Assembly (NCBI RefSeq): GCF_940807255.1
Contig: NZ_CALNWY010000027.1
Coordinates: 1 to 60,114, forward strand
Source of the DNA: Mixta sp. Marseille-Q2659
Lineage (GTDB): Bacteria > Pseudomonadota > Gammaproteobacteria > Enterobacterales > Enterobacteriaceae
Reading direction: 5' to 3'
DNA: 60,114 bases
The notes below the pieces were generated by a model that was given only the letters and a program-made list of their open reading frames with translations, did not search any database and was not told where the DNA came from. The first letter of the stretch is position 1. Every line of letters starts with the position of its first letter. The translations under genes were made by a program, and so were the position numbers. This document shows, in pieces, positions 16,309 through 56,314 of the stretch.

Positions 16309-16533
16309 GGTCAGGCCCTCCCCGTCAGCCAGCCTTAATGTAAAGCGTAGGCAGCAACCTCAGGTGCGCAAGTCATTGAAACAGTTTTTGTCATGGGCGT
16401 TTACCGACGCATTATTTAGCCACTTTGCTTTGCTGAAACTGCCGTTCCGGACTACTTTTAATGACTTAACTTTACAAAAAAAGGGAAACAGCACAGGAAG
16501 TGGCTGCGACGCAATGTCTTTGTGAGAGTCCTT

Positions 16534-19506
16534 ATGAGCCAAAACACCTGCACCATTATTTTTAACGGCGAGGCCCTGCGCGGCGAGGCAAATCAACCGC
16601 TGATCGATTTTTTACAATCCCAGGGGAAAGTCCTGCCTCATGTCTGCTATCACCCTTCTTTGCCGCCGCTGCAGTCCTGCGATGTGTGCTGGGTTGAACA
16701 TCAGGGCGAGCTGGTACGCGGCTGTACGCTTAATACCTATGATGGGCTGGAGATCTCCAGCCGTCAGCCGCAGGCGAAAGCGGCTCAGGAAGAAGGAATG
16801 GATCGCCTGCTGGCGCGGCACGAGCTTTACTGCACGGTATGTGAACACAACAGTGGCGACTGTACATTGCATAACACCGTCGCCGATATGCATATTCCAA
16901 TTCAGTATTACCCTTATCAACGCAAGCCTTATCAAAAAGATGAGAGCAACCCCTTCTACACCTACGATCCTGACCAGTGCATTCTGTGCGGGCGCTGCGT
17001 GGAAGCCTGTCAAAATGTAGAAGTTAACGAAACGCTCTCTATTGATTACGCGGCGGAGCATCCGCGCGTGCTGTGGGACGGCGGCACGCAAATTGCGGGT
17101 TCCAGCTGCGTCAGCTGCGGCCACTGCGTGACCGTTTGTCCCTGCAACGCGCTGCTGGAAAAAACCATGCAGCCAAATGCCGGTCCCTTTACGGCGATGC
17201 CGGAAGATCTCAAGCGTCCAATGATCGATCTGGTGAAATCGCTGGAAAACACTATTGGCGCGCCGCCGATTACCGGCGTTTCGCTGATAGATATGGCGAT
17301 GCGCCAGAAAGAAATTAAAAAAACCAAAACGGTCTGCACCTACTGCGGCGTCGGCTGTAGCTTTGAGATGTGGACGCGCGATCGGCATATCCTGAAAGTG
17401 CAGCCGGTAGCCGACGCGCCGGTAAACGGGATTTCAACCTGCCTTAAAGGCAAGTTCGGCTGGGATTTTGTCAACAGCCCACAGCGCCTGACCACGCCGC
17501 TTATTCGTGAAAACGGACGCTTTCGCCCCGCCAGCTGGGATGAAGCGTTGGACCTGGTGGCTGAGCGGCTGAAAGCGATAGCGGCGCAGCACGGCGGCGA
17601 CAGCATCGGCTTTATCGGCTCCAGCAAAGGCAGCAATGAAGAAGCTTACCTGACGCAAAAGATCGCCCGTCTGATTTTGGGCACCAACAATGTCGATAAC
17701 TCCTCACGCTACTGCCAGAACCCGGCGACCGAAGGGCTGTTTCGCACCGTCGGCTACGGCGGCGACGCCGGCACGCTTGAAGATCTGCAACAAGCCGATC
17801 TGGTAGTTATAGTCGGCAGCAATCTGGCGGAAAACCATCCGGTTATCGCGTCGCGCCTGAAAGCGGCGCAAAAGCAGCATGGTCAGAAGATGCTGGTGAT
17901 CGATCCGCGTCGTCATGAAATGGCCGAGCGCGCCGATCTCTATCTGCGTATCCGCCCCGGCAGCGATGCGCTTTGGGCATCAGCCATGTCCCGCTATATG
18001 TTTGAGCATGGCTATGCCGATGACGCTTTTCTTAATGAGAAGGTTAATCAGGTTGATGAATATCGCGCTTCGCTGGCGCCTTTTACACTCAACTATGTCA
18101 GCGAGCATACCGATTTGAGCGTTGAGCAGTTGATTAGCGCGGCGGAGATGATCGGTCAGGCGCAGCGCGTCTGCATTCTCTGGGCGATGGGCATTACGCA
18201 GCACAGCCACGGCGCGGATACCAGCACTGCTCTTTCGAATTTGCTGCTGGTCACCGGCAATTATGGTCGCCCGGGCACCGGCGGTTATCCGATGCGTGGT
18301 CACAACAACGTTCAGGGCGCCAGCGACTTCGGCTGCCTGAGCAACATCTATCCTGGCTATGAAAAAGTGACCGATGCAGCCGTCCGTGAGAAATGGGCGC
18401 GCGCCTGGGGCGTAGCGCCAGAGGCGCTCTCCGATCGGGTCGGCGCCGATAACTATATGATGGTTCAGCATGCGTACGAAGGCACATTAAAAGCGATGTA
18501 TATCATCGGTGAGGAAACCGCCTTTTCTGACGCGGACTCTACCAAAGTACATGAGGCGTTCAGCAAGCTGGAATTTATGGTGGTGCAGGATATTTTTATG
18601 AGCCGCACCGCTGAATTCGCCGACGTGGTATTACCCGGCTGCCCCAGCGTGGAAAAAGAGGGAACCTACGTTAATACCGAGCGCCGTATTCAACGTTTTT
18701 ATGAGGTGATGCCGCCGCTGGGCGACAGCCTGCCTGACTGGCGCATTCTGACCGATCTTGCCGCTCGCATGGGTCACCCCTGGTACTATACACATCCGGG
18801 AGAAATCATGGCGGAAGCGGCGGGGATTGCCGATATTTTTGCCGGCGTTAATTATCAGCAGCTCAGCGGCTGGCAATCGCAGCTGTGGCCGGTGAAGCCG
18901 GACGGCGACAGCACGCCGTTGCTTTATACCGACGGCTTTAAATTTCCCGACGGCAAAGCGGTGCTGTATCCCATTAGCTGGCAGCCGCCGCAGGAGTCGC
19001 CGGACGACGAGTACGATCTCTGGTTAAACAATGGCCGCATGCTGGAACATTTCCAGTCCACCAACCAAACCGGACGCGGCGGCCGGATGCTTTCCCTGTC
19101 ACCGAACGGCTTTGTGGAAGTCAGCCCACAGCTGGCTCAAGAGCGACAGATCCAGCAGGGCGACTGGGTAAACATTGTCTCACGTCGTGGTGAGATGCAA
19201 GTGCCGGTGGTGATTACCGAACGTGTAGCGGGCAACATTCTGTTTATGCCGATTCACCACGGTAAGCCTGGCGTGAATGGTCTCACCGGCGAACATCATG
19301 ATCCTGACGTCAATACCCCGGCCTATAAAGAGATCGCGGTGAAGATGGTTAAGCTGGCCCATCCGCCGCTCTCAGAGCCGCTGCCGCAACAAAACTTCCG
19401 CCACGGCAGTCGTACCCCGCTGCCGGGCCTGCCGGTCGACATCAAGTGGCAGCAGGAAGGTTACACCCTGCCGCCTGAACACACCCAACACCCGGAGAAA
19501 TTCTAA
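16534..19506 (+). CDS. Formate dehydrogenase-family molybdoenzyme (ForE/YjgC type)
   Basis: 990-residue cytoplasmic redox enzyme. Domains: N-terminal [2Fe-2S] ferredoxin (Cys38, 49, 52, 64); His-ligated cluster H96-x3-C100-x2-C103-x6-C110; two [4Fe-4S] sites (Cys149/152/155/159 and 192/195/198/202); molybdopterin oxidoreductase core with a further [4Fe-4S] (Cys268/271/275/303), active-site SRYCQNPA with Cys394 as probable Mo ligand, MRGHNNVQGASDFG, and a C-terminal dinucleotide-binding domain. It resembles Bacillus YjgC/YrhE, described with the DUF1641 partner as the quinone-linked ForCE enzyme. The residue after the Mo-ligating Cys is Gln, not the His of classic formate dehydrogenases, so the substrate is uncertain. 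Start at 16534 chosen over an in-frame start 12 bases upstream. Stop overlaps the next gene (TAATG). Confidence 0.85.
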   Translation: MSQNTCTIIFNGEALRGEANQPLIDFLQSQGKVLPHVCYHPSLPPLQSCDVCWVEHQGELVRGCTLNTYDGLEISSRQPQAKAAQEEGMDRLLARHELYCTVCEHNSGDCTLHNTVADMHIPIQYYPYQRKPYQKDESNPFYTYDPDQCILCGRCVEACQNVEVNETLSIDYAAEHPRVLWDGGTQIAGSSCVSCGHCVTVCPCNALLEKTMQPNAGPFTAMPEDLKRPMIDLVKSLENTIGAPPITGVSLIDMAMRQKEIKKTKTVCTYCGVGCSFEMWTRDRHILKVQPVADAPVNGISTCLKGKFGWDFVNSPQRLTTPLIRENGRFRPASWDEALDLVAERLKAIAAQHGGDSIGFIGSSKGSNEEAYLTQKIARLILGTNNVDNSSRYCQNPATEGLFRTVGYGGDAGTLEDLQQADLVVIVGSNLAENHPVIASRLKAAQKQHGQKMLVIDPRRHEMAERADLYLRIRPGSDALWASAMSRYMFEHGYADDAFLNEKVNQVDEYRASLAPFTLNYVSEHTDLSVEQLISAAEMIGQAQRVCILWAMGITQHSHGADTSTALSNLLLVTGNYGRPGTGGYPMRGHNNVQGASDFGCLSNIYPGYEKVTDAAVREKWARAWGVAPEALSDRVGADNYMMVQHAYEGTLKAMYIIGEETAFSDADSTKVHEAFSKLEFMVVQDIFMSRTAEFADVVLPGCPSVEKEGTYVNTERRIQRFYEVMPPLGDSLPDWRILTDLAARMGHPWYYTHPGEIMAEAAGIADIFAGVNYQQLSGWQSQLWPVKPDGDSTPLLYTDGFKFPDGKAVLYPISWQPPQESPDDEYDLWLNNGRMLEHFQSTNQTGRGGRMLSLSPNGFVEVSPQLAQERQIQQGDWVNIVSRRGEMQVPVVITERVAGNILFMPIHHGKPGVNGLTGEHHDPDVNTPAYKEIAVKMVKLAHPPLSEPLPQQNFRHGSRTPLPGLPVDIKWQQEGYTLPPEHTQHPEKF

Positions 19507-19994
19507 TGGCTGAGCCAATCAATTATGACGTCCCGCCAACCAAAACCGAACCTGACGCGCATGATGCGCTGCATGAACTCCTGCACAGCCTGCATCACCA
19601 CGGTTTTTTACGGCTGGCTAACGATATGGTTTCTGCCAATACGCAAATCGCCAAAGTGCTGGTCGAGGGACTGAGCAAACCCGGCTCGCAAAATGCGATG
19701 CAGAATCTGTCGGTGCTGCTGATGGCGCTATCCGATATCCCGCCGGGCCAGTTTCACAAAACGGTCTTTGCCGCCAAATCGGCGCTGAACGCCGTTAACC
19801 TGCATGCCGAAACGCAACAGCATCATGACAGCGCGCCGGGCGTCAGCGGCACCTGGAAACTGCTGCACGATGAAGACCTGTGGCATGCGATCATGCCGCT
19901 GGTAGCGGGTTTAAAAGCGTTCGCCAGCGCGATGGAGCAACCGGCGCCCGACAAACCCATTAGCGCCTTTACCGGTAAAGACAGCCATGCCTGA
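19506..19994 (+). CDS. DUF1641 protein, ForC-like partner of the molybdoenzyme
   Basis: 162 residues, soluble, with LHSLHHHGFLRLANDMVSAN, LVEGLSKPGSQNAMQNLSVLLMALSDIPPGQF and a C-terminal helix GTWKLLHDEDLWHAIMPLVAGLKAFASAM. DUF1641 proteins sit next to YjgC/YrhE-type dehydrogenases; in Bacillus the equivalent (ForC) is thought to link the catalytic subunit to menaquinone at the membrane. Its ATG overlaps the upstream stop and its last eight bases overlap the oxidase gene, so dosage is tied to both. Family recognition is good; the role as electron or membrane adaptor is inference. Confidence 0.75.
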   Translation: MAEPINYDVPPTKTEPDAHDALHELLHSLHHHGFLRLANDMVSANTQIAKVLVEGLSKPGSQNAMQNLSVLLMALSDIPPGQFHKTVFAAKSALNAVNLHAETQQHHDSAPGVSGTWKLLHDEDLWHAIMPLVAGLKAFASAMEQPAPDKPISAFTGKDSHA

Positions 19995-21351
19995 CGCAGA
20001 ACTAACGCTGCTGCTTTCGCGTGCGCAGTTTGCGGTTACGATCGGCCTGCACATTATTCTTGCAGGCTTCAGCTTTGGCCTCTCCCTCTGGCTGACGGTG
20101 CTGGAGGGATTATGGCTGTGGCGCAAGCAGCGGCGTTACCTTGAGGTTTACCAGTTCTGGCTAAAAATTTTCGCCCTGAACGTGGCGGTAGGCGTGGTGT
20201 CCGGCGTGGTAATGGAGTTTCAGTTCGGCACCAACTGGGGTCCATTTATTGAACGTACCGGCGGCCTTATCGGCCCGCTGATGTTCTATGAAGTGTTGGT
20301 CGCTTTCTTTCTGGAGGCGGGCATGGTCGGCGTTATGTTATTCGGCATGGATCGCATCGGGCCGCGCCTGCATTTTATGGTAACCGTGCTGGTGGCGGTC
20401 GGCGCCTTAATTAGCGTGTTCTGGATCCTGGCCGCCAATGCCTGGATGCAAACGCCCGCCGGATTTTTTCTTGATGAACAGCAGCGCTTCCAGCCGCAGG
20501 ACTGGCTGGCGATTATCTTCACGCCCTCCTTTCCCTGGCGCTGCGCCCATATGTTGCTGGCAATGCTTGCAGGCACTGCGCTTATGGTAGCGGCCACCGG
20601 TGCCTGGCAACTGCTGCGTCAGCGCGACTGCAATCGGGCGCGCCTGATGTTGTCGCTAAGCCTCTGGTCGCTGCTGTTTCTGGCGCCGACGCAGGCGGTG
20701 ATTGGCGATCTGCATGGCGAAAACACGCTGCGCTATCAGCCGACAAAAATTGCCGCCATCGAAGGCGACTGGCAGCGCCCACCGGCGGGTAAAGGCGAAC
20801 CGCTGCGGCTGTTTGCGTTGCCCGATCAGCAGCAACAGCGTAACGCATGGGAACTGGCGATCCCGCAGCTGGGCTCGCTCTATCTGCGTCATAACCTGCA
20901 CGGCCAGATTAAAAGCCTGCGCGAGTTCCCGCCAGAAGACCTGCCGCCGGTCATGCCGGTCTTTTTCGCCTTTCGTCTGATGGTTGGGCTGGGCATATTG
21001 ATGATAGCGATCAGCCTGACGGCGCTGGTGCAACGGCTGCGCGGACGACTGTGGCAAACGCGCTGGTTGTTAAAAAGCATTGTGCTGATGGGCCCCGCCG
21101 GATTTATTGCGCTGCTCGCTGGCTGGGTAGTAGCTGAAATGGGACGGCAACCCTGGACTGTTTATGGATTAGTGCGCACGGCTGACAGCGTTTCGCCGCT
21201 CTCTTCCCGCCTGGTCATCGCCTCCGGCAGCGCTATTTTGCTGGTATATGGTCTGGTATTTACCCTTGGGCTGCGTTATTTACTGCGCTATGCGAACAAT
21301 CCCACCTGGGATGGTAAACCCGGCGCGGCCACCAGGGAGCAGACCTCATGA
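19987..21351 (+). CDS. Cytochrome bd-type quinol oxidase subunit I (cyanide-insensitive type)
   Basis: 454 residues, about nine transmembrane helices. Haem ligands can be placed: His in TIGLHIILAG (near 22), His in WRCAHMLLAML (near 187), Met in FRLMVGLG; the acidic pair of FYEVLVAFFLEAG and the hallmark GRQPW are present. The quinol loop is short, as in CioA-type enzymes rather than E. coli CydA. Inner-membrane oxidase that reduces oxygen with quinol electrons. Translationally coupled on both sides in the operon with the molybdoenzyme. Confidence 0.9.
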   Translation: MPDAELTLLLSRAQFAVTIGLHIILAGFSFGLSLWLTVLEGLWLWRKQRRYLEVYQFWLKIFALNVAVGVVSGVVMEFQFGTNWGPFIERTGGLIGPLMFYEVLVAFFLEAGMVGVMLFGMDRIGPRLHFMVTVLVAVGALISVFWILAANAWMQTPAGFFLDEQQRFQPQDWLAIIFTPSFPWRCAHMLLAMLAGTALMVAATGAWQLLRQRDCNRARLMLSLSLWSLLFLAPTQAVIGDLHGENTLRYQPTKIAAIEGDWQRPPAGKGEPLRLFALPDQQQQRNAWELAIPQLGSLYLRHNLHGQIKSLREFPPEDLPPVMPVFFAFRLMVGLGILMIAISLTALVQRLRGRLWQTRWLLKSIVLMGPAGFIALLAGWVVAEMGRQPWTVYGLVRTADSVSPLSSRLVIASGSAILLVYGLVFTLGLRYLLRYANNPTWDGKPGAATREQTS

Positions 21352-22301
21352 TGGCGCTAACGCTGGAAGATATCTCAGCCGCAACCTTAGCGGCGTCGCT
21401 GCTGATGTATCTGCTGCTGGACGGCACCGATCTGGGCGTAGGGATGCTGCTGTTTTTCTTTCGTGATGGGGATGCGCGGCGCAGGCTGACCATGACGATC
21501 CTGCCCATCTGGGATGCGAACGAAACCTGGCTGGTGCTGTTCGCCGGCGGTACGCTGGCCCTGTTTCCGGCGCTTTACAGCGCTTTATTCAGCGCAATCT
21601 ATCTGCCGCTGTTTATCATGCTGCTGGCGCTAATCGGACGCGCCGTGGCGCTGGAATATCGCAGCCATGTTAATCAATGCTGGCATCGCTATCTTGATGC
21701 GATACATATTGTCAGTTCGCTGATTGCCACCTTTTTACAGGGCGCGCTGGCTGGGCTGGTCATCAGCGGAAACGTGGATAGCGGGCCATTCGGTTGGCTC
21801 GCTCTTTATCCGGCGCTGTGCGGCTGTGGCCTGATTGCCGCCTGTCTGCTAAGCGGCTGCTGTTGGATTCAGTGGCGCGTTAAAGGCCCGGAAGTCGTGC
21901 TGGCACAATTACTGGCGTGGTTATTTTTAGTGCTTACTCTGGCATTAGTAACGGTAATCAATTTGCTGGACAGCGCCCCGCTGTTACAGGCCTGGCAACG
22001 GCTGCCAGGGAAAATTGTGCTGATGATTATGGCGCTGACGCTGGCAGCGCTGCTGCTGTCCATGTACAGGCAACGTCCCATTCTCTCGCTAATGCTGGTA
22101 TTGACCCTGTTTACCTTAAGCTGGGCATTGGTGCTGACTGGCCTTTATCCGTGGCTGTTGCCCGGCAAATTTACCATTCAGCAAGCGGCAGCGGCACCGG
22201 CGACGCAGTGGTTTCTGCTGGGCGGCTATGGCGTTATCCTGCCGATTACCCTCGCCTATAACAGTTGGGCATTCTGGGTATTTCGCGCCAGGGTCAGCTA
22301 G
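21348..22301 (+). CDS. Cytochrome bd-type quinol oxidase subunit II
   Basis: 317 residues, hydrophobic, CydB family: LLLDGTDLGVGMLLFF near 18-35, WDANETWLVLFAGGTLALFPALYSALFSAIYLPL, and GWLALYPALCGCGL. Four-base overlap with subunit I (a second ATG follows at 21351). Shorter than typical CydB (about 335-380). No DUF2474/CydX small subunit follows: the convergent lysR begins 13 bp later. Confidence 0.88.
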   Translation: MMALTLEDISAATLAASLLMYLLLDGTDLGVGMLLFFFRDGDARRRLTMTILPIWDANETWLVLFAGGTLALFPALYSALFSAIYLPLFIMLLALIGRAVALEYRSHVNQCWHRYLDAIHIVSSLIATFLQGALAGLVISGNVDSGPFGWLALYPALCGCGLIAACLLSGCCWIQWRVKGPEVVLAQLLAWLFLVLTLALVTVINLLDSAPLLQAWQRLPGKIVLMIMALTLAALLLSMYRQRPILSLMLVLTLFTLSWALVLTGLYPWLLPGKFTIQQAAAAPATQWFLLGGYGVILPITLAYNSWAFWVFRARVS

Positions 22302-22322
22302 CGCGGCAAAGCGGCTAGCTGA
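22294..22322. terminator. Symmetric inverted repeat at convergent gene ends
   Basis: TCAGCTAGC and GCTAGCTGA form a perfect 9-bp stem around 11 bases. Both flanking genes end inside it with the same codons (Val-Ser-TAG). No long T-run; a shared bidirectional terminator is likely but unproven. Confidence 0.45.
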
Positions 22323-23217
22323 CTTTCGCCTGCTTGCCGGGATAACCTTCCGCAATAATATCTAACAGCTCAGCGTCATAGGGCGTGGCGGGCGATTTCA
22401 CCAGCGCAGGATAAAAAACCTGCGGTGCCGGGAAAATATCCAGCACGCAGCAGTTACGCAGCCTGCCCGGATCGACTTCCGAAGCGGGCAGCAAGGTCGC
22501 CGCCTCCAGACCGTTTTCCAGCCAGTCGAGAATGATGCCCGGCTGCGTAATGCTCATAATGACATTCGGCGAAGCGCCGCTGCTGCGAAAATGGTCGAGC
22601 AGGCGCTCATAAATGCCGACATCGCGCGCACGATGCAACAATACCAGCGGAAAATCCGCCAGTTGCAGCCACGGAAAAGGCGTTTGAATCACGCCGGGGA
22701 GCAAATTACGGTTGACCACCGCCACCAGCTTTATCGGATCGAAAGAAATATATTCATAACCTTCGTTATTCGATGGCTTTTGAATTAGCGCAATATCAAT
22801 AATTCCGTCATTGAGTAATGATTCCAGACTGCTGGAATCAGTAACGGAAACACTTATTTTCACTTCAGGATTACGCTGATAAAACTCCAGCAGCAACGGC
22901 GTAAAGTAATTTTGATAAAGATGCGTCAGCCCGACACGTAATATTCTTCCTTCATGATTAGCGATAATACTGGTTTCACGGGCGGCAATTTCAACCTGGC
23001 GTAATATCTGGCAGGCTCGTCGGTAAAAAGATTCGCCCGCTTTCGTTAAGGTCATGCTGTTGCCGTCACGAATAAATAGTGGCACCTTCAGCTCTTCTTC
23101 CAGTTCGCGAATGCGCTTGCTCAGCGGCGGCTGCGCCATATTAAGCACCCGCGCGGCGCGGCTTACCGAGCCTTGCTCTACCACTTTGCAAAAGTATCTA
23201 AGCCGTTTCAAGTCCAT
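22315..23217 (-). CDS. LysR-type regulator of the UbiD-like decarboxylase module
   Basis: 300 residues. N-terminal winged helix MDLKRLRYFCKVVEQGSVSRAARVLNMAQPPLSKRIRELE, then a type 2 periplasmic-binding-like effector domain (about 90-295). Divergent from the ubiD-like gene across 353 bp, the usual arrangement for an activator of the divergent operon with an aromatic acid as inducer. Target and ligand are inferred from position only. Confidence 0.85.
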   Translation of the reverse strand: MDLKRLRYFCKVVEQGSVSRAARVLNMAQPPLSKRIRELEEELKVPLFIRDGNSMTLTKAGESFYRRACQILRQVEIAARETSIIANHEGRILRVGLTHLYQNYFTPLLLEFYQRNPEVKISVSVTDSSSLESLLNDGIIDIALIQKPSNNEGYEYISFDPIKLVAVVNRNLLPGVIQTPFPWLQLADFPLVLLHRARDVGIYERLLDHFRSSGASPNVIMSITQPGIILDWLENGLEAATLLPASEVDPGRLRNCCVLDIFPAPQVFYPALVKSPATPYDAELLDIIAEGYPGKQAKVS

Positions 23218-23570
23218 AATTGTTACCCGATCTGTCTGCGTATTACCGTAACCTGGCGCCCGTACTGTTTATCTGATGGCGAGATAAATTAATAATGAAA
23301 AAAATTTCTGATGAAGCTGGAAAGCACCAGACCTGTGAAATCATTGTTAATAAAAAGAGCATTGTCGCCCCTGTTAATTCAAATCCCAGCAACAATAATA
23401 AAACTTTAAATTAAATTTAAGCACCATTAATGGCAACGCGCCGGATTATTAATGATCTCATCAAACTTTTTCGATCTGCATTATATGCCCGAAATGGTAT
23501 TTGTCTGAAATAATAATTAAGGCATATATTTCCGTTAGTTTGATTAACAACATCAGGAAAGGAAATAACT
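23218..23570. promoter_or_regulatory. Divergent promoter region lysR/ubiD-like
   Basis: 353 bp, AT-rich. TATATGCC (23482-23489) and GGCATATA (23521-23528) form an 8-bp inverted repeat 31 bp apart just before the decarboxylase gene; a candidate LysR-type operator or promoter-proximal hairpin. AGGAAAGGAAATAACT precedes ATG 23571. Confidence 0.4.
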
Positions 23571-25070
23571 ATGCCTAAAAAAGAGCAGCAATCAGCCTGT
23601 CCACCGGTTACCGATCTTCGTTCCGCGCTGGCGCTATTAAAAACGTTGCCGGGTGAATATGTCGAAACCGATACTGAAGTCGATCCGCATGCCGAACTGT
23701 CCGGCGTTTACCGCTACGTTGGCGCTGGCGGCACCTGCCAACGTCCGACCCGTAAAAACGGTCCGGTCATGGTATTCAACCGCATCAAAGGCTTTGACGA
23801 TATTAGTGTGGCTATCGGGCTGAACGGTTCCCGTAAACGCGTTAGCCATTTCCTTAACTGCGAGCCTGAGAAACTGGGCCATCTGCTGAAAGATTCCGTC
23901 CAAAACCCGATCGCTCCGGTTGAAATTGAAGGCGCCTCCGCCGTTTGTCAGGAAGTGGTGCATCTGGCCAGCGATGCCGATTTCGATCTGCGCAAGCTGC
24001 TGCCCGCACCGACCAATACCGAAGAAGATGCCGGTCCTTATATTACGATGGGCCTCTGCTACGCCTCCGATCCTGAAACCGGCGAATCCGACATCACCAT
24101 TCACCGTCTGTGCGTTCAGAGCAGCGATGAACTCTCTATGTGGCTGACGCCGGGCCGTCATATTGATGCTTTCCGCATGAAAGCTGAAGCGGCCGGTAAG
24201 CCGCTGCCGATTTCCATCAGCATTGGCGTGGATCCGGCTATCGAGATTGCCGCCTGCTTTGAGCCGCCGACAACGCCGCTGGGCTTCGACGAGCTGAGCG
24301 TAGCTGGCGCACTGCGCGGACGCGCCGTTGAGATGGTGAAATGTAAAACCATTAATGAAAAAGCGATTGCCCATGCGGAAATCGTTATTGAAGGTGAACT
24401 GCTGCCAAACGTGCGCGTGCGTGAAGATCAGAACACCAATACCGGCAAAGCGATGCCGGAATTCCCGGGCTATACCGGCGAAGCCAAAGAAGCGATTCCG
24501 GTGATTAAGGTGAAAGCCGTTACCCATCGTCAGAAACCGATCTGGCGCACCACCGTCGGGCCGGGCGAAGAACATGTCAATATGGCCGGTATCCCGACCG
24601 AAGCCAGTATTCTCGATATGGTAGGCCGCGCAATGCCGGGCAAGCTGCTGAATGTTTTCGCCCACTCTGCAGGCGGCGGTAAATTGCTGGCCGTGATGCA
24701 GTTTAAAAAATCCGCGCCGGTTGATGAAGGTCGCCAGCGCCAGGCTGCCCTGCTCGCCTTCTCCGCCTTCCCGGAACTGAAGCATGTGATTCTGGTGGAT
24801 GAAGACGTTGATATTTTCGACAGCGACGATGTGATGTGGGCGATGCAAACCCGCTACCAGGGTGATGTGGATACCGTCTTTATTCCGGGCGTGCGCTGCC
24901 ATCCGCTCGATCCCAGCTAGGTGCCGGAATACAGCCCATCCATCCTTCAGCAGGGAATGTCCTGTAAAACCATTTTCGACTGCACAGTGCCTTTCCATCT
25001 GAAATCGAATTTTGAGCGTTCAAAATTCCGTGAAGTTGATGTGAAACGTTTCCTGCCCGACTTTGAGTGA
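23571..25070 (+). pseudogene. UbiD-family aromatic acid decarboxylase, in-frame TAG at 24918
   Basis: prFMN-dependent decarboxylase family (4-hydroxybenzoate, vanillate, gallate or protocatechuate type). Reads 449 residues to TAG 24918-24920, then continues in the same frame for 49 more codons (VPEYSPSILQQGMSCKTIFDCTVP) to a TGA at 25068-25070: total 499 residues, the normal UbiD length. The family has Gln at the stop position (HPLDPSQ), so a CAG-to-TAG change fits. Without the tail the enzyme lacks a conserved C-terminal helix. prFMN/metal motifs are present (ITIHRLCVQ, IEIAACFE, HAEIVIEGEL). Could be a true nonsense allele, an error, or read through by a suppressor. Followed directly by its ubiX-type partner. 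Confidence 0.8.
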
Positions 25071-25077
25071 GGCTGAT

Positions 25078-25659
25078 ATGTCGCGACAACGCATCATCCT
25101 GGGCATTAGCGGCGCCTCTGGCTTTCAGTACGGCGTCAAAGCGCTCCAGCTGCTGAAACAGCAGGATGTGGAGGTGCATTTGACGATTTCCAAAGGCGCG
25201 GTGAAAACCTGCGAACTGGAAACCGATTACCGTCTGGAAGAGATCAAGGCGCTCGCGGATGTGGTTTATCCCATCGATAACGTAGGCGCGGCGATAGCCA
25301 GCGGCTCCTTCAAAACCATGGGGATGCTGATCGCGCCCTGCTCAATGCGTACGTTGGCAGCGGTGGCCTGCGGCATCAGCGACAATCTGCTGACGCGCGC
25401 CGCCGATGTGATTCTGAAAGAGCGTCGCCGTCTGGTACTGTTAGCGCGTGAAACGCCGCTTAATGCGGCGCATATCCGCAATATGCAGGATGTCACTAAC
25501 ATGGGGGGGATTATTTTCCCCCCGGTTCCGGCGCTCTATCAGCGTCCGCAAACGGTGGATGAGATTATTACGCACAGCGTGGCGCGAGCGCTCGACCTGT
25601 TTGGCTTAGAAACCTCTATTCCCCGCTGGGGAGAAGGTGAAAACAAGCGGGTTCGCTAA
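25078..25659 (+). CDS. UbiX-type flavin prenyltransferase partner
   Basis: 193 residues, makes prenylated FMN for the neighbouring UbiD-type enzyme. [18 protein letters not shown] is the flavin-binding start; [35 protein letters not shown] and [13 protein letters not shown] with the catalytic Ser, Glu and prenyl-phosphate-binding residues are all present. Start at 25078, eight bases after the decarboxylase stop. Resembles the subunit B of non-oxidative hydroxyarylic acid decarboxylases (EcdB/KpdB/VdcB). The small subunit D of those systems is not present. Confidence 0.88.
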
Positions 25660-53472: not shown

Positions 53473-53689
53473 GCCAGTGGTAAAAGTGCATAAAACGAGG
53501 TTGGCAACACAAAATCAATAACTTAAAACATAGCGCTATTCATATTAACTGCATATATAGTGAATAAATATCTGAGGCGCAGCCGTTGGTGGCAGATCAA
53601 ACAGCGGAATTATGCAGAAAGAAGATAAAATATTGCTTTTGTGATCGGGAATAACATTTGCTGTTAAAAAGGGGCAAAATGCGCCCGAT

Positions 53690-53724
53690 AAAAAGGCGGA
53701 CTGCATCAAAAAAGTGCATCCGCC
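53690..53724 (-). terminator. Orphan minus-strand terminator
   Basis: GGCGGATGCA/TGCAGTCCGCC with one bulged base, then TTTTTATC on the minus strand. No minus-strand gene lies upstream of it before the cyd region. Confidence 0.5.
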
Positions 53725-53870
53725 GCTGCGTCTGTTATAGCTGCTTATTAAAATTCTGTTGCTGTTATAGCCATCATTTCTGTGTTTCACTCATCCTCTT
53801 CTACACTTGTTGTGTTGTCAGCAAGGAAGTCTCTTTTTGGAAGCTTAATCATGTACATCTCGAGGTGGCT

Positions 53871-55304
53871 ATGTTCGGTTTAGACGCATTCGAACTGGCA
53901 AGGATACAATTTGCGTTCACGGTCTCTTTTCACATAATTTTTCCTGCGATTACCATTGGCCTCGCCAGTTTTTTGATGGTGCTGGAAGCGTTATGGTTGA
54001 AAACCCGCAATGACACCTGGCGCGATCTGTATCATTTCTGGTTGAAAATTTTTGCAGTGAATTTTGGTATGGGCGTGGTATCGGGCCTGGTCATGGCTTA
54101 TCAGTTCGGTACCAACTGGAGCGGCTTCTCTGCGTTTGCAGGAAGTATCACCGGCCCGCTGTTGACCTATGAAGTGTTGACCGCCTTCTTCCTGGAAGCA
54201 GGTTTTCTCGGCGTTATGATGTTTGGCTGGAACCGCGTCGGTCCGGGCCTGCATTTCTTCTCCACCTGTATGGTGGCGTTGGGTACGCTGATGTCCACTT
54301 TCTGGATCCTCGCGTCCAACAGCTTTATGCATACGCCGCAGGGCTATGAAATTGTGAACGGTCAGCTGATCCCGGCGGAGTGGTTTAAAGTGGTGTTCAA
54401 CCCTTCATTCCCTTATCGCCTGTTGCATATGGCGACCGCCTCCTTCCTGTCCACCGCCTTTTTTGTCGGTGCGTCCGGCGCCGCATCTGCTGCGCGGCAA
54501 TAAAGCCCGGCGATTAAGCGTATGTTCTCGATGGCAATGTGGATGGCGCTGATCGTCGCGCCGATTCAGGCGGGCATTGGTGATGCGCACGGTCTGAATA
54601 CGCTGGAGCATCAGCCAGCCAAGATTGCGGCGATTGAAGGCCACTGGGAAAACAAACCCGGCGAGCCAACGCCGCTGATTCTGTTTGGTCTGCCCGATAT
54701 GCAGGCGGAAGAGACCAAATATGCGCTGGAGATTCCGGTGTTAGGCAGCGTGATCCTGACGCACAGCCTGACTAAGCAAATCCCGGCGCTGAAGAGCTTC
54801 CCGCCGGAGGATCGCCCGAACTCCACTATCGTCTTCTGGTCGTTCCGCATTATGGTCGGGCTGGGCATGCTGATGATTCTGGCGGGCGTCTGGAGCCTGG
54901 TGCTGCGTCTGCGTAAGCGGCTGTATGACCAACGTCTGTTCCATCGCTTTGTGCTGATTATGGGGCCGTCGGGCCTGCTGGCGATTCTGGCGGGCTGGTT
55001 TACCACTGAAATTGGGCGTCAGCCGTGGGTGGTGTATGGCCTGTTGCGTACCCGCGATGCGGTGTCCAATCACGGCACGCTGCATATGTCGATAAGCCTG
55101 CTGGCCTTTATTGTGGTTTACGCCTCTGTCTTCGGCGTGGGTCTGGTTTACCTGCTGAAGCTGGTGGGACGCGGCCCGCAGCCGTTTGTCGATCATCCGC
55201 CAAAAGGTGGCCCAGGCACGCCGCGCACGCCGGCGCGTCCGCTCTCTGCCGCCGATGAGTCGATGGATGAGCATAAGAAAGATGAGCTTGGGGGAATTAA
55301 ATAA
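53871..55304 (+). pseudogene. Cytochrome bd-type quinol oxidase subunit I, disrupted in the middle
   Basis: CioA/CydA family, second bd oxidase in the window. ATG 53871 with GAGGTGGCT upstream (MFGLDAFELARIQFAFTVSFH). Haem ligands in VSFHIIFPA, RLLHMATAS and FRIMVGLG, acidic YEVLTAFFLEAG, and GRQPWVVYG are present. Between about 54477 and 54512 the reading is disturbed: GASGA then ASAARQ-stop, where the family has GAWHLLRGNKAP; a two-base loss (TGG to G) and a one-base loss (CCCC to CCC) explain it, and the original frame resumes at AIKRMFSMAMW. Otherwise about 478 residues. Stop overlaps cydB (TAATG). Confidence 0.9.
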
Positions 55305-56314
55305 TGGGTATCGATCTTCCGCTGATTTGGTTCGTCATTATTGTGTTCAGCATCCTGATGTATGTGGTGATGGATGGTTTTGACCTCGGTATCGGCCTGC
55401 TTTATCCGATGGTGCGCGAGACCAAAGATCGCGACGTGATGATGAATACCGTCGCGCCGGTCTGGGACGGCAACGAGACCTGGCTGGTAATGGGGGGCGC
55501 CGGGCTGTTCGGCGCTTTCCCACTCGCCTATTCGGTGATTCTGGACGCGCTGGCGGTACCGCTGACGATTATGCTGATCGGGCTGATTTTCCGCGGCGTC
55601 GCCTTTGAGTTCCGCTTTAAGGCGACGGTGTCGCATCGCGCCTTTTGGGATAAGTCGTTTATCGCCGGTTCTTTTATCGCCACCTTTGCGCAGGGCGTGG
55701 TGCTGGGCGCGTTCCTGAACGGTTTTCCGGTGCAGGGCCGCGAATGGGCGGGCAGCGTTTTCGACTGGATCACGCCGTTCAGCCTGTTCTGTGGACTGGG
55801 GCTGGTCGTGGCTTATGCGCTGCTGGGCGCCAGCTGGCTGATTATTAAAACCGAAGGCCATCTGCTGCAAACCATGCGTAAGCTGGCGCGTCCGTTGCTG
55901 TTGGCGTTGCTGGTAGTGATGGCGATTGTCAGTATCTGGACGCCGCTGTCGCATCAGGCAATTGCCGACCGTTGGTTTACCACGCCGAATCTGTACTTTT
56001 TCCTGCCGGTGCCGATTCTGGTGCTGCTGGTCTCCTGGGCGCTGTGGCGTAACGCCTGGTTGCCGGATGCGCACTACGCGCCTTTTATTCTGACGCTGGC
56101 GTTGGTGTTCCTCGGCTTTAGCGGGTTGGGGATCAGTATCTGGCCGAATCTGATACCGCCGGAGATTACGTTCCGTGAAGCGTCGTCTCCGCCGGAGAGC
56201 CAGGGCTTTATGCTGGTCGGCGCGCTGTTTATCATCCCGCTGATTCTGGTTTACACCTTCTGGAGCTATTACGTGTTCCGCGGCAAAATCGACCCGGAAC
56301 AGGGCTATCACTGA
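55304..56314 (+). CDS. Cytochrome bd-type quinol oxidase subunit II
   Basis: 336 residues, CydB family: YVVMDGFDLGIGLLYP near 14-29, WDGNETWLVMGGAGLFGAFPLAYS, RGVAFEFRFKA and LTLALVFLGFSGLGISIWPNLIPPEI. Membrane partner of the preceding subunit, which it overlaps. Both this and the DUF2474 gene behind it point to the cyanide-insensitive (CioAB) branch. Confidence 0.95.
   Translation: MGIDLPLIWFVIIVFSILMYVVMDGFDLGIGLLYPMVRETKDRDVMMNTVAPVWDGNETWLVMGGAGLFGAFPLAYSVILDALAVPLTIMLIGLIFRGVAFEFRFKATVSHRAFWDKSFIAGSFIATFAQGVVLGAFLNGFPVQGREWAGSVFDWITPFSLFCGLGLVVAYALLGASWLIIKTEGHLLQTMRKLARPLLLALLVVMAIVSIWTPLSHQAIADRWFTTPNLYFFLPVPILVLLVSWALWRNAWLPDAHYAPFILTLALVFLGFSGLGISIWPNLIPPEITFREASSPPESQGFMLVGALFIIPLILVYTFWSYYVFRGKIDPEQGYH

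Follow-up and report, generated by a model that had tools for sequence, protein, structure and literature searches.

A forC-forE-cydAB operon in Mixta: a candidate short respiratory chain from formate to oxygen

Formate dehydrogenases of the ForCE type are known from Bacillus subtilis, where ForCE1 (YjgC-YjgD) and ForCE2 (YrhE-YrhD) oxidise formate and have formate:menadione activity; ForC is the catalytic subunit and ForE an essential partner, with no predicted transmembrane segment (PMC8808070, available in part; PDB 8rqz, 8rr0 and 9gzq). The genes form pairs (yjgCD, yrhED), the acceptor is menaquinone, and the accessible part of that paper mentions no bd oxidase partner. In Escherichia coli a formate:oxygen supercomplex of other proteins, formate dehydrogenase O (FDH-O) with the bo3 and bd-I oxidases, has been reported to link formate to oxygen via quinone and a bd oxidase (cited in PMC7005000, available in part). 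The third relative is CioAB, a bd oxidase of the cyanide-insensitive oxidase (CIO) type, with a short Q loop and with cydA and cydB genes that have no cydX directly behind (PMC5322542); the main text of this source, as far as accessible, makes no mention of formate or molybdopterin. Here we describe four overlapping genes, forC-forE-cydA-cydB, in a stretch of 60,114 nucleotides from Mixta sp. Marseille-Q2659 (hereafter the window; the 60-kb contig C27 of a 4.3-Mb genome), which join the two proteins of the Bacillus enzymes to a CIO-like oxidase and would carry out the same overall reaction as the E. coli assembly. The operon probably specifies a short aerobic electron-transport chain that begins with formate and ends with oxygen; ForCE and CydAB would communicate by way of the quinone pool, and the chain might serve during acid or general stress. 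The parts are known; ForCE plus cytochrome bd as one inherited unit was not found described. No account of a forC-forE-cydAB operon was found in the accessible texts of the open PMC library, to which Broc et al. 2025 (quinone channelling) may add more, and in Pantoea the four genes already carry names in NCBI/PLSDB annotation. The preliminary description of the locus knew of no system of such composition, which holds for the operon; the idea of a formate:oxygen supercomplex is older, from E. coli (PMC7005000, accessible part).

As first described, the genes are co-directional within positions 16534-22301 and overlap at every junction (forC/forE by 1 bp, as TAATG, forE/cydA by 8 bp and cydA/cydB by 4 bp):

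16534..19506, + strand: forC-like gene; 990 residues, predicted molybdenum-bis(pyranopterin guanine dinucleotide) (Mo-bisPGD) formate dehydrogenase with a NuoG-like iron-sulphur (Fe-S) N-terminus, Cys394-Gln395 and Arg588-Gly-His590
19506..19994, + strand: forE-like gene; 162-residue partner protein, distant homologue of B. subtilis ForE1
19987..21351, + strand: cydA-like gene; 454 residues, subunit I of a predicted short-Q-loop (CIO-type) cytochrome bd oxidase, haem-ligand and quinol-site residues kept
21348..22301, + strand: cydB-like gene; 317 residues, subunit II of the same bd oxidase

An alternative upstream GTG start at 16522 would give a longer ForC. A convergent LysR gene begins only 13 bp past cydB, so that there is no space for a cydX gene directly behind it. 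The same quartet, in the same order, is present in all seven other genomes of the genus Mixta, and the adjacency therefore exceeds chance.

The 990-residue product, which had been recognised as an Fe-S/molybdopterin enzyme, is predicted to be a ForC-type molybdopterin formate dehydrogenase. It scores 800.8 bits against TIGR01591 (formate dehydrogenase alpha; cut-off 666.25), contains the Pfam domains Fer2_4, NADH-G_4Fe-4S_3, Fer4, Molybdop_Fe4S4, Molybdopterin and Molydop_binding, and aligns over residues 7-982 with B. subtilis YjgC (ForC1, PDB 8rqz; 1245 bits). The active-site motif of YjgC is kept as C394-Q395 and R588-G-H590, the Cys-Gln plus Arg-Gly-His combination described for the Bacillus enzymes (PMC8808070, accessible part). 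The same genome also has fdhD. The protein is unlike E. coli FDH-O, which we take to be membrane-anchored, with a periplasmic active site and unlinked genes.

The small partner required a more indirect assignment. It had been called a DUF1641 protein, and the two names had been swapped, ForC being the catalytic subunit and ForE the small one (PMC8808070, accessible part). The window protein gives no match to PF07849 (DUF1641) and no Pfam or NCBIfam match at E<=0.001; at E<=10 only two Pfam families appear, both unrelated, and DUF1641 is matched by 4 of 13 ForE family members at E<=1, weakly (best E=0.0013). Searched alone against the PDB, it did not find ForE1, the best match being an unrelated NAD nucleotidase (E=0.0023). 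A profile of the 13 family members, by contrast, finds ForE1/YjgD (8rqz_A) at E=3.3e-7 as its sole PDB match below 0.01, the next being at E=2. Pfam DUF1641 was thus rejected as proof of the label. The homology to ForE rests on the family profile, and the assignment of the pair to ForCE on that profile match together with ForC. The window ForE has diverged so far from that of B. subtilis that the likeness is visible by family profile only. No stretch of it has transmembrane hydrophobicity, and an AlphaFold2 model from 43 sequences (helices only; mean predicted local distance difference test (pLDDT) 51.7, predicted template modelling score (pTM) 0.22) is too poor for use.

The oxidase subunits match PF01654 (CydA, E=9.6e-150) and PF02322 (CydB, E=1.1e-66), and CydA matches seven PDB sequences, including chains of E. 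coli bd-II and bd-I and of a bd menaquinol oxidase. Residues His22, His188, Met332, Glu102, Glu110, Lys254 and Glu259 align with E. coli H19, H186, M393, E99, E107, K252 and E257, which in E. coli are haem ligands, proton-path glutamates and the quinol-site Lys and Glu. E. coli CydA residues ~305-370 have no counterpart in the alignment, which corresponds to a short Q loop. Conservation at these sites, together with the absence of the extended Q-loop segment, marks the pair as a predicted CIO-type cytochrome bd oxidase, in agreement with its earlier designation as CioAB-like.

The preliminary description had proposed a search for DUF1641 genes within two genes of cydA-like genes. A scan of genome contigs with the ForE family yielded 92 relatives, and the analysis continued with the best 80 of them. 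ForC stood beside ForE in 63 of these 80, and cydAB lay directly behind forC-forE in 15 of the 63: Mixta (2), Pantoea (7), [Erwinia] mediterraneensis, Phytobacter, an Enterobacteriaceae metagenome-assembled genome, Rahnella, Pseudomonas duriflava and Kushneria sinocarnis. Sixteen of the 80 loci, all Burkholderia (L041, L081, L093-L103, L105-L107), have a ForE-like gene with no ForC found in the fetched stretch, and one is cut at a contig end. In Burkholderia multivorans (L017) only a few genes separate a ForE-like gene from cydAB and from genes for Mn catalase and ferritin-like proteins, and in Pantoea stewartii (L050) forC is fragmented, with no cydAB within ~10 kb after forE. The ForE protein was also found in 77 of 72,556 plasmid records, 67 of them named Pantoea. 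Twelve of the 77 were examined: five carry all four genes (Pantoea ananatis, P. dispersa, P. piersonii, Rahnella and one filed under Acinetobacter), three carry forC-forE only (P. agglomerans, P. vagans, Halomonas), three, all Burkholderia, are without forC, and a Vreelandella plasmid has a fragmented forC. Plasmid CP060162.1 (L022), deposited as Acinetobacter venetianus, matches Pantoea eucrina almost exactly in this region, and its host label may be wrong. From a tblastn search of plasmids with ForC, in which 60 of 242 records were listed, two distant records were examined and both have forC-forE without cydAB. In a draw of 398 genomes of the phylum, with two candidates scored per genome, ForC was found at E<=1e-200 in five, the window's own included; among the other four, G557 has the four-gene arrangement.

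The quartet is co-inherited. On a ForC tree of 75 rows (28 with cydA, 46 without, and L071 unscored) the cydA label changes 4 times, against a shuffled mean of 22.5; rows had a ForC match of at least 700 aligned residues at >45% identity plus a ForE match, and L028 (which shares a contig with L158) and broken or cut ForC were left out. In the final CydA tree of 72 rows, 28 of the 29 ForCE-linked sequences fall in one clade of 36 with support of 100/100, which distinguishes this lineage from CioAB. (All CydA trees left out L028, the broken second CydA of the window (its pieces, which were too short, and L013) and L110, a copy of the window; the later ones also left out the long-branch L012.) The linked CydA outside the clade, that of K. 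sinocarnis, groups with a different CydA (100/99), and on an earlier 61-row tree a single clade of all linked rows had an approximately unbiased test value (p-AU) of 0.034. In K. sinocarnis cydAB is flanked by forE on one side and an IalB-like gene on the other; K. pakistanensis and K. indalinina have members of those flanking families around forCE without cydAB. Since the K. sinocarnis CydA is of another lineage and lies between forE and its flank, a bd oxidase joined forCE at least twice, or once with later replacement in K. sinocarnis. The basal member of the main clade, from Paraburkholderia caribensis (L168 2684-9426), has cydAB divergent from a gene of an FdhF/YdeP-family Mo oxidoreductase that lies beside a formate/nitrite transporter, so that this oxidase lineage accompanies a formate-type Mo enzyme a second time. 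Among 274 genomes of the class, the 29 nearest other CydA loci show no ForC within 1.5 kb.

The preliminary description had named menaquinone as the carrier for ForE-ForC-like pairs in Bacillus, and this does not generalise. The menaquinone gene menD was over the cut-off in 2 of 12 ForCE hosts, the window's genome and Phytobacter; in the other 10, including the four-gene hosts K. sinocarnis and P. duriflava, it was below the cut-off, with weaker matches only, which are taken as paralogues. The futalosine route (PF02621) was over the cut-off in one of the 12 (Billgrantia, 26.1 bits against 26, a partial match) and below it in one more. Ubiquinone therefore probably serves in most of these 12 hosts, as judged from gene absence in draft genomes.

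In the mechanism that we propose, ForC would oxidise formate in the cytoplasm at its Mo-bisPGD centre, and the electrons would move along its Fe-S clusters. ForE would aid ForC in meeting the membrane and reducing quinone, which under aerobic conditions would be ubiquinone, and CydAB, presumably co-expressed, would oxidise the quinol, preferentially as we infer, and reduce oxygen to water. The net reaction would be formate + 1/2 O2 + H+ -> CO2 + H2O, and the bd oxidase would release two protons on the outer side. On the usual scheme, each formate would remove three cytoplasmic protons and release two outside. The chain could thus contribute to energy conservation while consuming acid, in keeping with a stress-type use.

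Several observations weigh against this reading. Forty-eight of the 63 ForC-ForE loci have no adjacent bd oxidase (for one of them, L071, there is too little sequence to tell), and ForCE therefore seems able to act without one. Other neighbours of forCE recur while changing places, namely short-chain dehydrogenase/reductase (SDR; 17 loci), substrate-binding protein (11), Zn-alcohol dehydrogenase (7) and FdhD (6). Eight of the 36 members of the CydA clade are unlinked to ForCE, which weakens the view of a clade holding solely linked oxidases. Six of these eight come from the P. agglomerans group and branch within the linked sequences of Pantoea. The ForC tree had suggested that this group (10 rows) lost cydAB, and this was ruled out, as 6 of 7 genomes searched keep a CydA of this clade at another place; the seventh has no oxidase at such similarity. 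On a Chimaeribacter arupi plasmid the oxidase lies in an island near Mn catalase and ferritin-like genes, and that plasmid has no forC. We found no activity reported in the literature for any Gram-negative ForCE. Finally, the Mixta genome encodes other enzymes of both types: its fdhD adjoins a TGA-containing alpha gene of the formate dehydrogenase N (FDH-N) type, and there is also a longer CydA, so that electrons could mix via the quinone pool. We nevertheless retain the short respiratory chain of the preliminary description, given a ForC/ForE-type dehydrogenase and a bd oxidase in one overlapping operon that is co-inherited in several genera. The exclusive coupling, or physical supercomplex, which had been joined to it is unsupported as written: the two halves lie apart in the P. 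agglomerans group, with one of seven genomes lacking the oxidase, and most ForC-ForE loci have no bd oxidase directly behind.

Upstream of forC a further feature was seen by alignment:

16452..16475, + strand: candidate promoter-like block; CTACTTT, starting 82 bp before the forC ATG, then an AT-rich stretch

The word CTAnn[CT]T, which we take to resemble a sigma-S type -10, stands 76-95 bp upstream of forC in 33 of 36 enteric loci, as read by eye without a control in loci that share ancestry. A longer conserved block occurs in 15 of the 36 (shuffled mean 0.02) and in none of 39 non-enterics, and is absent from the window itself. This candidate promoter word would suit an explanation by co-regulation only, under which both enzymes are stress functions beneath one promoter and no electron delivery is preferred. 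Acid and benzoate induce yjgCD and yrhEFG in B. subtilis (PMC2788229), the SigB regulon of that species includes forCE1 (PMC8808070), and acid consumption has been suggested for these homologues (PMC2788229; PMC3788345), each source being accessible in part. The Chimaeribacter copy and a more distant Burkholderia bd oxidase near Mn catalase genes also favour such an explanation, as do a ClcA gene and a CLC-family gene that adjoin two of the operons. However, a formate-type Mo enzyme accompanies CydA three times: in the main ForCE-linked clade, in K. sinocarnis and, as YdeP, in P. caribensis. Plain co-regulation gives no reason to expect this, and we regard it as somewhat unlikely that co-regulation is the whole story. 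A role as a stress-time formate oxidase is, in any case, coherent but unproven.

A physical formate:oxygen supercomplex, in which ForE docks ForC on CydAB and quinol is passed on directly, would be a special case of the respiratory chain, and the likelihoods of the two overlap. It could account for the 8-bp forE-cydA overlap, which is shared by the window and the five four-gene plasmid loci and has the same offset in the seven other Mixta loci, and for CydA residues that 26-27 of the 27 linked sequences have in common but that seldom occur among 32 others. Yet the separated genes persist in the P. agglomerans group, and the ForE model gives nothing usable. bd oxidases oxidise quinol near the outer side, whereas ForCE is cytoplasmic, which makes direct hand-over awkward. 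For E. coli a supercomplex of other proteins has been reported, but imaging cited in the same source gave supercomplexes there no support, FDH-O not having been imaged (PMC7005000, accessible part). On balance we hold such docking to be unlikely. We are equally doubtful of a specialised formate-oxidase machine, in which ForE would bring ForC to a dedicated bd subfamily and the ubiquinol would barely mix into the pool, as an emergency chain for removing acid and formate.

A substrate other than formate for the Mo enzyme appears improbable. Gln replaces the usual active-site His, and the other formate dehydrogenase of the genome could cover formate, but the same Gln is present in the formate-oxidising YjgC and YrhE (PMC8808070, accessible part) and TIGR01591 is over its cut-off. 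Chance or hitch-hiking adjacency, to which the minority of ForCE loci with cydAB (15 of 63) might point, is scarcely credible given a pairing kept across Enterobacterales families and with two CydA lineages.

Around forCE, the most frequent neighbour is cydAB (CydB cluster in 27 of 75 loci; next cluster 17); the SDR, substrate-binding, Zn-alcohol dehydrogenase and FdhD families rule it out as the sole recurring one. Five neighbour proteins were compared with NCBIfam, and none exceeded a cut-off naming a formate or formaldehyde enzyme. Nearby Zn-alcohol dehydrogenases were rejected as formate-supplying formaldehyde dehydrogenases, since the four scored gave 76-188 bits against TIGR02819 (cut-off 636.95). 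In the window, LysR, UbiD and UbiX genes (22315-25659; hydroxyarylic acid decarboxylase type) lie between cydB and DUF554/DUF481 genes (to 26396). LysR, UbiD and UbiX were ruled out as parts of the system, as none is in the stretches of the seven other Mixta genomes; near cydB, a DUF481 gene is present in 7 of 7 and a DUF554 gene in 2 of 7. Genes for DUF2254 membrane proteins were seen upstream of forC in P. duriflava (L039) and in G557 (L166). The window also holds a second, CIO-like cydA at 53658-55304 (+), followed by a cydB-like gene at 55304-56314. The second cydA has an in-frame TAA at 54501-54503, which may be a real nonsense change or a sequencing error; it is free of stop in all seven other Mixta genomes.

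If the proposed chain is correct, ForCE would extend from the menaquinone-linked enzymes of Bacillus to Proteobacteria that probably use ubiquinone, and ForE would gain a genetically linked membrane partner. The operon would offer a compact natural formate:oxygen chain in which to ask whether quinone is channelled from a soluble dehydrogenase to an oxidase, and nature already provides comparisons for such tests: the separated genes, and a second oxidase lineage at the same place.

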